A stretch of DNA of 64,000 nucleotides from Leptotrichia buccalis C-1013-b (GTDB taxonomy: Bacteria > Fusobacteriota > Fusobacteriia > Fusobacteriales > Leptotrichiaceae), in NCBI RefSeq assembly GCF_000023905.1, contig NC_013192.1, forward strand, positions 496,001-560,000, written 5' to 3'. Made by a program: the position numbers and the translations under genes. Below, in pieces: positions 17,092 through 22,869 of the stretch. The notes under the pieces are model-generated. The model was not told the origin of the DNA. It saw nothing but the letters and a program-made list of their open reading frames with translations, and did no database searches. The stretch's first letter is position 1, and each line of letters starts with the position of its first letter.

Positions 17092-18189
17092 CTAATATTT
17101 CAACATCTCTTTTCCAATGTTTTTTATATTCAGTGCCGCATTGTAATCTCTATCAATTTCAATTCCACAGCACTCACATTTATAACTTCTTTCTGATAAT
17201 TTCAGTTCCTCTTTAACGTTTCCACATTTACTACAAGTTTTCGATGACGGAAACCACTTATCTATTTTCAAAAATTGTTTCCCTGAAAACATCAGTTTAT
17301 ACTCAAGCATTCTCAAAAACATTCCCCATCCATTATCTCCTACACTTTTCCCAAAATTTAATGCCTGGCTCATCCCTTTCATATTCAAATCCTCAACAGC
17401 CACAGTATTATACGCTTCAGACAATTTTTTCGATAATTTATGTAGAAAATCTCCTCGGCAATTCTTGATATACTCATGTAATTTTGATATTTTCTCTTTT
17501 TGCTTATACCAATTTTTAGAAAATTTCACTTTTCTCGATAATGATTTCTGCAATTTTTTCAATTTTTTCTCCAACATCTTAAAATACCTTGGATAATCAG
17601 CCCTTTGGTTTTCAGAACTGACAAATAATTCAGACATTGAAAAATCAAGTCCAATTACTTTATCATTACTTGGCATTTTTTGAATTTCTTTTTCAAATTC
17701 CGTCAAGACAGAAACATAGTAATTTCCATTACTGTTTGTCAATGTTACTGACTTTATCTTGTAATCTTTCGGTATTTCTCTATGATATTTTAATTTAATT
17801 TTTTTCAATTTTGGCAAAACCAAATATTTGTTTTCCTCAATTCGTATTGAATTATTCACACAATTTGTCGTATAACTTTTAACACTAGTCTTTTTAGATT
17901 TGAACTTTGGAAACTTTGCTCTCTTCTGAAAGAAATTCGTAAACGATCGTTTTACATTCAATTGAGCATTTGAAAGTGCCAGACTGTCTACTTCTTTCAA
18001 AAATTGGTTTTCACTTTTCAAACTGGCAGGTGTAATTATTTTATTTTTTCCAGTTTCTTCATAAATTTTATTCGCAGTGTATAAAATTGTATTGTAAACA
18101 AAACGAACACATCCAAAAGTCTTGTTTACCAATAATTCTTGCTCCTTATTTGGATAAATTCTGTATTTGAATGCTAAATTATATTTCAT
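17092..18189 (-). CDS. tnpB: RNA-guided endonuclease TnpB
   Basis: 365 residues. N-terminal helix-turn-helix region (KYRIYPNKEQE, CVRFVYN), then a RuvC-like nuclease with Asp182 in VIGLDFS, Glu266 in AVEDLNM and Asp349 in DRDYNAALN, and a zinc ribbon with Cys319/Cys322 and Cys338-Cys341 between the last two. All catalytic residues are present, so it is predicted active. TnpB cleaves DNA guided by RNA from the element's right end and helps retain the transposon. The ribosome binding site AGGAGGTG overlaps the end of tnpA, suggesting translational coupling. Confidence 0.93.
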   Translation of the reverse strand: MKYNLAFKYRIYPNKEQELLVNKTFGCVRFVYNTILYTANKIYEETGKNKIITPASLKSENQFLKEVDSLALSNAQLNVKRSFTNFFQKRAKFPKFKSKKTSVKSYTTNCVNNSIRIEENKYLVLPKLKKIKLKYHREIPKDYKIKSVTLTNSNGNYYVSVLTEFEKEIQKMPSNDKVIGLDFSMSELFVSSENQRADYPRYFKMLEKKLKKLQKSLSRKVKFSKNWYKQKEKISKLHEYIKNCRGDFLHKLSKKLSEAYNTVAVEDLNMKGMSQALNFGKSVGDNGWGMFLRMLEYKLMFSGKQFLKIDKWFPSSKTCSKCGNVKEELKLSERSYKCECCGIEIDRDYNAALNIKNIGKEMLKY

Positions 18190-18193
18190 AAAA

Positions 18194-18592
18194 TTACACC
18201 TCCTTTTGATTTTGAATATATTTTTTAATTATCTCTAACGGTGCACCTCCAACACTTACAACTAAGTAACTTCTACTCCAAAAATATTCTTTCCACAATC
18301 TTCTCCTTATTTCAGGAAATTCTTTTTTTATCAACCTGCTGGAAGCACTTTTGTAAGTATTTACAAACTTAGAAAGTTCAGTATTAGGCATAGCATTAAT
18401 CAACATATGAATATGATCAACATCATGTTCCCATTCTTTAAGAACAATGTTATACTTCGGACATATTTTTTCAAAAATCTCTTTCAATCTATTAGAAATT
18501 TCATCATTAATGACTACTCTTCGATATTTTATACAAAAAATCATATGATAATTTATATCAAATACTGAATGATAATTACTATTATATGACAT
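18194..18592 (-). CDS. tnpA: IS200/IS605 Y1 transposase TnpA
   Basis: 132 residues with the HUH motif at His60-Ile-His62 (DVDHIHMLI) and the nucleophilic tyrosine at Tyr125 (IIKKYIQNQ). It cuts and joins single-stranded ends at subterminal hairpins. The length and motifs match functional members. It is the first gene of the element, read leftward from a strong promoter just inside the left end. Confidence 0.94.
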   Translation of the reverse strand: MSYNSNYHSVFDINYHMIFCIKYRRVVINDEISNRLKEIFEKICPKYNIVLKEWEHDVDHIHMLINAMPNTELSKFVNTYKSASSRLIKKEFPEIRRRLWKEYFWSRSYLVVSVGGAPLEIIKKYIQNQKEV

Positions 18593-19812: not shown

Positions 19813-21492
19813 ATGCTAAGAGAATTAAGATTAAATAATTTAGCGATAATAAAAAATCTGGACTTGGAATTTAATGAAAAATTTATTGCATTGACTGGAG
19901 AAACTGGGGCTGGAAAATCAATTATTTTAAATGGAATTTCACTATTAATTGGTGAAAGAAGTCATATTGACATGATTAGAAATGGGGAAGAAAACCTTTT
20001 TGCAGAAGGTATTTTTGAATTAAATGAAAATCAGAAGAAAAGGCTAAATGAGCTTGGATTTGAAATAGAAGATGACGAGCTGATTATAACTCGTTTTTTT
20101 GACAGAAGTTCAAAATCTAAAATAATGGTAAATGGGAAAAGACAGACTTTATCAAGATTAAAGGAGCTTATGGTAAACATTATTGATTTAGTCGGGCAGC
20201 ACGAACATCAGTTTTTGTTAAATAATGAATATCATTTGCATTTACTGGATAGATTTTTGAATGATGAAGGAAAGGAGCTTTCCAGAAAGATTCGTGAAAA
20301 TGTAAGTGAAATCAAGAAATTAAATTTAAAAATAAAAAATATTGAAGATGAAAAATCTAAAATTGCAGAAAAAAAAGATGTACTGGAATTTCAATTTAAT
20401 GAAATTAATGAACTGGATTTAAAAGAAGATGAAGATAATGAACTGGAAGAAGAATACAGAATTTTGTTTAATGCTGGAAAAATTAGCGAAAAACTGGAAG
20501 AAACTTCTCAATTGCTAAAAGAGGGAGAATTCTCCATTCTGACTGCACTAGGGCGGGCAAAAAGAAATTTGGAGCAGCTTTCAGATTTGTCAGAGTCCTA
20601 CAGTGAACTTTCTGAAAAAATAGAGTCTGTTTTATACGAAATTGAAGAAATTTCCTATTCTGTGGACAATTCTATCGGGGACGTTGAAATAAATGACACT
20701 AAACTGGAAAAAATTGTGGAAAGAATTGATAAAATTAATAAATTAAAAAGAAAGTACGGCTCGACAATTACGGAAATTCTGGAATTTAAAAATAAAATTG
20801 AAAAAGATTTGTCGCTAGTAAATTTTGAAAATGAAGAGCTGGAAAATCTTAAAATTCAGAAAAAAGAGCTTGTAAACCAGTATTTTCAGGATAGTGAAAG
20901 ATTGAGCGAAATTCGGATGAAAATTGCAGAAAATCTGCAAAATACAGTGGATATTCAATTAAGCGACTTGAATATGGAAAATGCAAAATTTAAAGTGGAA
21001 ATAATCAAAAAAGAAGAAATCACAGCTCACGGAACAGACAATGCAGAATTTTTAATTACAACAAATGTCGGAGAAACTTTCAAGCCGCTTGCTAAAATTG
21101 CGTCAGGTGGAGAAATTTCACGTATAATGCTTGCTCTAAAAAGTGTATTTTCTGAAGTTGACAATATTTCAGTATTGATTTTTGATGAAATTGATACTGG
21201 TATTTCTGGAGAAACAGTACGAAGAGTGGCGGAAAAATTAAGAGAACTTTCAAGAAATACACAAATTATCTGCGTAACCCATTCTCCGCAAATCGCTGGA
21301 AAGGCTCAGCAGCAGTTTTTTATCAAAAAGGAAATTGAAAATAATTTTACGGAGACAAAAGTTCGAGAACTAAATACAGAAGAGAGAATAAGGGAAATTG
21401 CAAGAATTATTTCAGGAGATAACATTACTGAAGCATCTGTAAGCCACGCCAAGGAGATTATGGGATTATGGGACAAAAAAGTGCTGATATAG
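19813..21492 (+). CDS. recN: DNA repair protein RecN
   Basis: 559 residues, SMC-like: Walker A GETGAGKS at 29-36, a long coiled coil (about 150-370), then LAKIASGGEISRIMLALK (signature) and LIFDEIDTGISG (Walker B), and a THSPQIAG H-loop. RecN acts at double-strand breaks with RecA. GAAAGGAAGG precedes the ATG. The 3' end overlaps the next gene by 25 bp. Confidence 0.95.
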   Translation: MLRELRLNNLAIIKNLDLEFNEKFIALTGETGAGKSIILNGISLLIGERSHIDMIRNGEENLFAEGIFELNENQKKRLNELGFEIEDDELIITRFFDRSSKSKIMVNGKRQTLSRLKELMVNIIDLVGQHEHQFLLNNEYHLHLLDRFLNDEGKELSRKIRENVSEIKKLNLKIKNIEDEKSKIAEKKDVLEFQFNEINELDLKEDEDNELEEEYRILFNAGKISEKLEETSQLLKEGEFSILTALGRAKRNLEQLSDLSESYSELSEKIESVLYEIEEISYSVDNSIGDVEINDTKLEKIVERIDKINKLKRKYGSTITEILEFKNKIEKDLSLVNFENEELENLKIQKKELVNQYFQDSERLSEIRMKIAENLQNTVDIQLSDLNMENAKFKVEIIKKEEITAHGTDNAEFLITTNVGETFKPLAKIASGGEISRIMLALKSVFSEVDNISVLIFDEIDTGISGETVRRVAEKLRELSRNTQIICVTHSPQIAGKAQQQFFIKKEIENNFTETKVRELNTEERIREIARIISGDNITEASVSHAKEIMGLWDKKVLI

Positions 21493-22445
21493 ATAATTCG
21501 GAGAAAAAATTAGAAATTTCTGAAAAGAAAAAGTTAAATTTGATAAAAGATAATTTTGATAAAAAAAGTAAAATATCAGTTAAAAATCAAATGCAGCTGA
21601 AAAACTTCCTGGAATTTCTAAAATTTGAAAAAAGAAGTTCCCAAAACACATTAAATGGGTATAATCGTGATTTAACACAATTTTTTCTGTTTGTAAAAAA
21701 AGATTTTTCTGAAATTGGAGAAAAAGAAATATCTAGTTATATTGATAATTTGAATAAAAAATTGAGAAAAAATTCAGTTTTGAGAAAAGTTTCAGTATTA
21801 AAGACATTTTATAAATTTTGTTATTTGAATAAGTTGATTACAAAAGACCCTGCTGGAATAATAAAAAACTTAAAGCGTGAATATCAGCCGCCTGAAACTT
21901 TAACATTAGAAGAAATAAAGCAGATTGTGGATAATTGCCCCAACACACCTGCTGGAATACAAAATCGACTAATTATTAAGTTACTAATTGTAACAGGAGC
22001 AATGATTTCAGAAATTTTAAATTTGAAAATAAAGGATATTGAAAATCAGTATGATAAATTTATAAAAACTCTTGGAAAAAATTCAAAATATCAGATAAAA
22101 TTAATTGACAATAGTTTTGAAATAGAAATTAAAAATTATCTGGAAATTTACAGACCAAAGTTAAAAAATGCAAATGAAAGTTTAAAAATATTTCCCGATA
22201 TTCGCCGCGAAAAGTTTTGGAAAAACTTAAAAATTATTGCCCAAAATGCAAAAATTGAAAAAAATGTATATCCGCATATTTTTAGAAATTCTTTAGTTGG
22301 AATTTTATCTGAAGCTAATGCTGATATTTGCATTATTCAGGAAGTATTGGGAAAAGTGAATATTACAACGGCAAAAATTAAAAAAAATGTGGAAAAATCT
22401 AAATTAAAAATGATTTATAACAATATAAAGTTGGGAGATGATTAA
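21468..22445 (+). CDS. Tyrosine recombinase (XerC/D-like) with missing catalytic residues
   Basis: 325 residues: a lysine-rich N-terminal extension of about 40, a SAM-like core-binding domain (NFLEFLKFEKRSSQNTLNGY, a classic Xer start), and a catalytic-fold domain. Lys204 (LGKNSK), His270 and Arg273 (HIFRNS) are kept. The box I Arg is Met179 (VTGAMISE), the second His is Lys296 (VLGK), and the nucleophilic Tyr position is Lys305. It should bind DNA or a partner recombinase but not cut DNA. The frame is fully open, and the gene overlaps recN, so translation is probably coupled. Confidence 0.85.
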   Translation: MGQKSADIDNSEKKLEISEKKKLNLIKDNFDKKSKISVKNQMQLKNFLEFLKFEKRSSQNTLNGYNRDLTQFFLFVKKDFSEIGEKEISSYIDNLNKKLRKNSVLRKVSVLKTFYKFCYLNKLITKDPAGIIKNLKREYQPPETLTLEEIKQIVDNCPNTPAGIQNRLIIKLLIVTGAMISEILNLKIKDIENQYDKFIKTLGKNSKYQIKLIDNSFEIEIKNYLEIYRPKLKNANESLKIFPDIRREKFWKNLKIIAQNAKIEKNVYPHIFRNSLVGILSEANADICIIQEVLGKVNITTAKIKKNVEKSKLKMIYNNIKLGDD

Positions 22446-22449
22446 GTAG

Positions 22450-22869
22450 ATGAAAGAAAAACGTGAATTAAAAAAAGATAGGGATGAAAAAATAAGAATA
22501 CTAATAATTACAACTATGGTATATTTTATATTTTTCCTTATAGAGAAAATGGAACTAATAACTTCATATCTGGGAATAATTATACTGATTTTATTATACA
22601 TGTATGCAAATTTTAATTTGATAAACTTATTTTTTACAAGTAAAAGAACTACTTTTAAAGTATATGCTTTTCTACTTTTGGAAGTAATTTATTTGTTTAC
22701 AGGAAATATTTCAATGTTAGGGTCAATATTGTACATAATATTGTTTTCACTCTTGATTTTTTCCATAAGAAAAGACGAAGGACGGGAAGAGATTCCTAAA
22801 ATAACTAAATTTGTTCAAATATTTATTGTATTTAAAGTTGTTTTTGTTTTATCAATGTTGATTTTTTAA
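22450..22869 (+). CDS. Small integral membrane protein, unknown function
   Basis: 139 residues with a charged N-terminus (about 16 residues) and four hydrophobic helices (about 17-35, 38-60, 70-86, 88-105), plus a fifth near the C-terminus. It starts 4 bp after the Xer-like gene, so it is probably the last gene of the recN unit. No recognised motif. Confidence 0.6.
   Translation: MKEKRELKKDRDEKIRILIITTMVYFIFFLIEKMELITSYLGIIILILLYMYANFNLINLFFTSKRTTFKVYAFLLLEVIYLFTGNISMLGSILYIILFSLLIFSIRKDEGREEIPKITKFVQIFIVFKVVFVLSMLIF

Follow-up and report, generated by a model that had tools for sequence, protein, structure and literature searches.

Organization of the xerD region

The stretch of DNA analysed here (the window, 64,000 nucleotides of the Leptotrichia buccalis C-1013-b genome, G000) belongs to a complete chromosome of 2,465,610 bp. 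It contains xerD as a single 325-codon frame that begins within recN and overlaps its end by 25 bp, in keeping with the intact Xer-like ORF described by an earlier note on this DNA. The features of the region are listed in Table 1. The last xerD codons (GGGAG, 22433-22437) double as the likely ribosome-binding site of orf139, whose hydrophobic product matched no Pfam family, and an Rfam search around xerD returned no RNA. Elsewhere in the window (17092-18592), adjacent ORFs were seen by eye to resemble tnpB and an IS200-type tnpA.

Table 1. Features of the recN-xerD-orf139 region (window positions)
Feature	Position	Strand	Basis or remark
recN	19813..21492	+	upstream of xerD, 25 bp overlap
xerD orthologue, 325 aa, predicted catalytically dead	21468..22445	+	ORF map, domain search, alignment
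Core-binding SAM-like DNA-binding domain PF02899, residues 44-119	21597..21824	+	domain search; confident in model
Catalytic domain PF00589, residues 144-304	21897..22379	+	domain search; residues 190-220 low-confidence in model
Codon 179, Met replacing box I Arg	22002..22004	+	alignment
Codon 204, beta-strand Lys retained	22077..22079	+	alignment
Codons 270-274, H-I-F-R-N; first His and second Arg retained, next His lost	22275..22289	+	alignment
Codon 296, Lys replacing second His	22353..22355	+	alignment
Codon 305, Lys replacing nucleophile Tyr	22380..22382	+	alignment
C-terminal tail, residues 306-325, little changed	22383..22442	+	alignment
orf139, predicted hydrophobic 139-aa protein	22450..22869	+	starts 4 bp past xerD stop

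The XerD product matched Phage_integrase (E 1.7e-19) and the N-terminal SAM-like domain (E 1.3e-12). Its best NCBIfam model was TIGR02225 (XerD), with an E-value of 3.8e-56 and 190.6 bits against an equivalog cut-off of 329.6 bits. Codons 36-325 aligned without gaps to the intact Leptotrichia copies. The gene is judged from synteny and alignment to be XerD by vertical descent.

Catalytic residues and structural model of XerD

The window XerD was aligned with 28 other full-length orthologues and with the solved structures of XerD (1a0p), XerA (5hxy) and an archaeal Xer (4a8e). At the R-K-H-R-H-Y positions it reads M-K-H-R-K-K, and the residue numbers given earlier (Met179, Lys204, His270, Arg273, Lys296 and Lys305) were correct. 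The His after Arg273 is also replaced, by Asn274, changing HxxRH to HxxRN. In the alignment with orthologues and solved structures, neither the nucleophile position nor its immediate neighbours (LGKVNITTAKIKKNV) hold a Tyr, and no alternative alignment rescued one. Tyrosine-recombinase chemistry is predicted from these residues to be impossible for the window XerD.

In an AlphaFold model made with a six-sequence alignment, the DNA-binding domain was confident (block means about 83-93), the catalytic domain was weak (pLDDT 39-59 around residues 190-220) and the whole-chain pTM was 0.49. When this model was searched with Foldseek, the top solved structures by E-value were XerD and XerA. The intact fold claimed by the earlier note is therefore upheld for the DNA-binding domain, whereas the catalytic domain was modelled too weakly to bear it out.

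XerD and XerC in Leptotrichiaceae

The xerD gene was present in all 33 Leptotrichiaceae genomes examined. It adjoins recN in 30 of them, recN not being detected within the 1.5 kb examined beside xerD in G030-G032, and orf139 lies next to it in all Leptotrichia. The G004 gene is interrupted by a contig end, and 28 full-length orthologues besides that of the window could be scored. A complete catalytic set was retained by 26 of the 28, showing that the replacements are not fixed across the family. The other two are Leptotrichia proteins: in G010 the second Arg is changed to Lys and the following His to Tyr, and in G016 the following His and the second His are both changed to Tyr and the nucleophile to Cys. 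Three further Leptotrichia (G009, G011 and G013) have xerD ORFs of 166-180 codons in which the N-terminal DNA-binding domain is present and the catalytic domain deleted; the C-terminal tail is present in two of these and was lost through a frameshift in G013. As far as the sequences tell, XerD losses are limited to part of one genus and vary in form, and the replacements in the window are best read as a lineage-specific event, not as the mark of an ancient non-catalytic subfamily. The XerD of G005 is 97% identical to that of G007 while recN is only 89% identical, a likely case of between-species recombination.

The sole other Xer of the window genome is a 363-aa protein whose gene lies between topA and yqeH; its set of catalytic residues is complete and its best model is XerC. 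On this evidence it is the genuine partner of XerD and is predicted to be active. The remaining integrases of the genome resemble mobile-element types. XerC residues are kept in the aligned family members except in G011, a genome with truncated XerD, where the beta-strand catalytic Lys reads Arg (IGRGGKER).

Presence and loss of dif

GC-skew switches were located in G000, G006, G017 and G020, and intergenic 28-mers within 25 kb of them were compared. A canonical 28-mer dif candidate, AAGTCCGATAATGTATGTTATGTATATT, was found in G017, and G020 and G006 have sequences closely matching it. Sites with at most 3 mismatches in 22 positions were detected in 23 of the 33 genomes, one in each except the incomplete G003, which had two; the 24 sites give NWGTCCGATAATRTATSTTATGTATATT. 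A reversed dif used as a control matched once in the 33 genomes, in G024. Among the 28 genomes at least 90% complete, 21 carry dif. The seven with no site within 3/22 mismatches, called dif-less here in a sense by which a strongly diverged dif (>3/22) would be missed, are all Leptotrichia: the window genome, G009, G010, G011, G013, G015 and G016.

All six genomes with damaged XerD are among these seven. The remaining one, G015, retains every XerD residue, yet its XerD is already relaxed. The association between absence of dif and damage to XerD had a Fisher p of 1.5e-5 family-wide and 0.005 within Leptotrichia, with relatedness ignored. Over the 400 kb surrounding its terminus, the window genome matched the dif profile at best as well as shuffled sequence does, and no XerC-XerC symmetric sites were found near this terminus. 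The search for a genuine XerC and dif suggested by the earlier note thus yielded an XerC beside topA with complete residues, but a dif that is undetectable in the window genome. In several dif-less genomes the old dif locus is still recognisable, a helicase gene and an integrase remaining while the dif between them is gone.

Several other dif candidates were rejected. A dif with an 8-bp centre had the wrong spacing and matched a coding motif; when strict patterns of the E. coli/B. subtilis type were used with a 6-bp centre, the matches were either recurrent and coding-like or scattered. The window genome has a good-looking match at 1199143, which is coding, the dif-like 28-mer that precedes xerC shows no conservation in other species, and a palindrome at the terminus accompanies the integrase, the true dif being another sequence. 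Text searches of the literature turned up no article dealing with Xer/dif in Leptotrichia or Fusobacteria. The GC skew of the window genome flips sign several times before the terminus (1.03-1.19 Mb), whereas the profiles of G017 and G020 are smooth; these repeated sign changes suggest that the terminus region of this dif-less genome has undergone inversions.

Evolutionary rates and constraint on xerD

Branch topology was fixed from recN, xerC, yqeH and orf139, and omega (dN/dS) was estimated with a codon model written for this analysis (GY94-like, with branch classes) using branch lengths from other genes. The terminal branch of the window XerD had 0.575 amino acid substitutions per site, compared to 0.071 for recN and 0.080 for XerC, and the XerD branches of G010 and G016 were accelerated too. 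XerD omega was 0.033 on the background, 0.135 in G010, 0.228 in G016, 0.078 in G015 and 0.195 in the window lineage, the last value being approximate since the synonymous length of that branch is high. Both domains of the window XerD were similarly relaxed, with an omega of 0.199 for the DNA-binding and 0.209 for the catalytic domain. Relaxation in G015 gave a 2ΔlnL of 6.5 overall and of 11.1 for the catalytic domain (omega 0.103 vs 0.022). In the species with truncated XerD, omega of the DNA-binding domain was about 0.10-0.14 on the terminal branches vs 0.053. XerC was also relaxed in the dif-less lineages (0.081 vs 0.050, 2ΔlnL 28.2); the same comparison showed no relaxation of recN and yqeH.

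An omega of 1 was rejected for the window, the other damaged-XerD and the G015 lineages tested, and, when branch lengths were left free, again for the window branch (2ΔlnL 61). The window xerD has about 85 excess amino acid changes, with no stops and no indels in codons 36-325, whereas neutral accumulation of this excess predicts about 7 nonsense mutations. Since its domains are free of stops and indels, its omega is well below 1 and the DNA-binding domain of the truncated clade is constrained, the decay of the window xerD is judged to differ from that of a free-running pseudogene. The persisting constraint exceeds what pure decay predicts, and both protein function and mere operon coupling would fit it. 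The dN/dS comparison proposed earlier gave a divided answer, with neutrality rejected but the lineage clearly relaxed. The earlier note had favoured a retained role over simple decay; orthologues that keep the catalytic residues, the very finding by which that note said it would be refuted, and the strong relaxation of the window copy count against that preference, while the persisting constraint leaves it partly supported.

The branch joining the window species with G010, G015 and G016 had 38% support, and this weak placement makes it uncertain how many times dif was lost independently. As a separate observation, constraint on orf139 is stronger in the dif-less Leptotrichia lineages than in the others (omega 0.046 vs 0.092).

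Integrase and palindrome at the terminus

A lambda-type integrase lineage was present as one copy in 13 of 13 Leptotrichia and in G002, which belongs to another genus; no other genus among the family genomes had a copy above 45% identity. Where integrase and dnaA share a chromosome-sized contig, they are about 49-54% of the chromosome apart, and in G000 and G006 the integrase lies at the GC-skew switch. The palindrome TTCTATTTATGTTTNACATAAATAGAA or a variant of it was found 87-894 bp downstream of the integrase in 14 of 14 carriers, and direct repeats of ATAGAACTTTT stand in front of it. Where a single contig of a dif-plus genome holds every part, dif comes first, then the integrase and then the palindrome. 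A palindrome search loosened to 3 mismatches yielded nothing informative.

Purifying selection on the integrase is strong (omega 0.057), and equally so in dif-plus and dif-less genomes. Its ORF is intact in 7 of 7 dif-less genomes, and the sole broken copy, a frameshifted one, is in G006, which has dif and an intact XerD. The protein carries an arm-binding domain, and the cargo genes beside it vary. Its relatives in phage and plasmid records were 31-41% identical among the best-ranked matches, and none were found in viral contigs. Judged by sequence, copies have evidently moved horizontally between species (G013, G002), and the integrase may represent a mobile element with a preference for the neighbourhood of dif. 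The G013 copy is 91% identical to the type of the window genome, while the type carried by its clade-mates G009 and G011 shares about 66% identity. Ten Leptotrichia have in common a conserved stretch of 76 bp next to the palindrome, with a possible bidirectional terminator stem at its end.

Probable decay of XerD after loss of dif

The XerC/XerD pair resolves chromosome dimers at dif, with XerD activated by the gamma domain of FtsK, and few systems of circular bacterial chromosomes are as highly conserved as XerCD/dif. Its loss or replacement is known mainly from end points, in streptococci, epsilon-proteobacteria and Legionellales. In Leptotrichia this normally conserved system appears to have been caught during dismantling, perhaps during replacement. 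We consider it probable that loss of dif released XerD catalysis from selection and so led to the dead XerD of the window. The canonical dif would have disappeared from the terminus, and XerD catalysis, with no site to act on, would have escaped selection. Three catalytic residues would then have been replaced in the window XerD, and other point changes or loss of the whole domain would have followed in other dif-less Leptotrichia. Selection on XerC would have weakened too, its residues being kept in the window genome. The single intermediate genome, G015, suggests that the loss of dif came before the decay of XerD. The leftover XerD may at most bind DNA or XerC, and its frame may stay open through such a DNA-binding or XerC-contact role or through the recN-xerD-orf139 gene string. 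A single genus spans dif-plus genomes, a dif-less genome with intact XerD, point-dead XerD and truncated XerD, and so offers the intermediate stages.

The frame and part of the constraint do persist, as the earlier note had emphasized, and a dead XerD that binds DNA and/or XerC and aids an active partner at an unrecognised site could account for the absence of stops and indels, the rejection of neutrality, the almost unchanged C-terminal tail and the constrained DNA-binding domain of the truncated relatives. However, the DNA-binding domain of the window protein is not specially protected relative to the catalytic domain, the known target is missing and XerC is relaxed as well, and we regard such a role as somewhat unlikely. 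As dif is undetectable in the window genome, its loss explains the changed residues better than recruitment to a helper role. The frame might instead be kept only for the operon, with translation through xerD protecting or coupling orf139 expression and the protein itself useless. The 4 bp between the xerD stop and the orf139 start, the likely ribosome-binding site within the last codons and the stronger constraint on orf139 in dif-less lineages agree with this; but coupling alone leaves the amino acid constraint in the DNA-binding domain (omega 0.1-0.2) unexplained and the G013 copy lost its tail by frameshift, which makes it an improbable account. A very recent inactivation, or a defect of this isolate or its sequencing, is hardly credible: although one genome of the species was examined, its XerD branch is eightfold longer than that of recN, three separate catalytic codons are changed and XerD is damaged in five other species.

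What made dif and XerD redundant, and hence losable, could have been the integrase with its palindrome acting as a single-recombinase module, a reading we hold to be possible though doubtful. A single copy opposite dnaA with the palindrome and repeats in every carrier, its strong purifying selection and its breakage only where dif persists fit such a takeover, as does the placing of a recombinase beside its own site, a described hallmark of XerS/difSL and XerH/difH (PMC5357621, PMC9765430). On the other hand, mobile-element integrases typically have such an arm-binding domain and arm-like repeats, horizontal exchange is evident, the cargo varies and omega is the same whether or not dif is present. 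We offer only tentatively the fuller scheme in which a mobile-element-type integrase and its palindrome at the former dif locus took over dimer resolution, XerCD/dif is being lost stepwise in several species and what is left of XerD persists in a DNA-binding capacity. If it is true, the successive stages are visible as the intact system, loss of dif with relaxed XerD, point-dead XerD and deletion of the catalytic domain, and Leptotrichia supplies a candidate replacement open to knockout and assay.

Comparison with known systems

The window XerD is orthologous to that of XerCD/dif systems (TIGR02225; E. coli XerD, 1a0p) by synteny and alignment, has TIGR02225 as its best model, at a score below the cut-off, and shares the two-domain layout, and the dif of Leptotrichiaceae is canonical in form. 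Unlike in those systems, three of the six catalytic residues are absent from the window protein and dif is missing from the genome. Streptococci reportedly keep a degenerate 'XerD-like' protein beside XerS/difSL, which would likewise be an impaired XerD retained beside another recombinase. XerS/difSL is established there, whereas Leptotrichia has no more than a candidate replacement, and its XerD decay is young and still differs from one species to another.

As in XerS/difSL, XerH/difH and XerL/dif (PMC5357621, PMC2731167, PMC9765430), one recombinase of similar size lies beside an inverted-repeat site at the terminus in Leptotrichia; the dif of Legionellales has long uninterrupted inverted repeats (PMC5357621, PMC9765430). 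The Leptotrichia integrase differs in having an arm-binding domain and direct repeats, in moving between species and in coexisting with XerCD/dif in several of them. As in mobile elements that use dif or insert there (IMEX; PMC5357621, PMC9765430), integrase and variable cargo lie next to dif, near which there is a second partial inverted dif; unlike in those elements, the integrase is the module's own, and the site beside it is not a copy of dif. In dif-plus genomes with the integrase this second inverted, partial dif-like site (mostly ACGTCCGATAAAATACTTTAT...) was found within about 50-350 bp of dif, and an integration event there could have left it behind.
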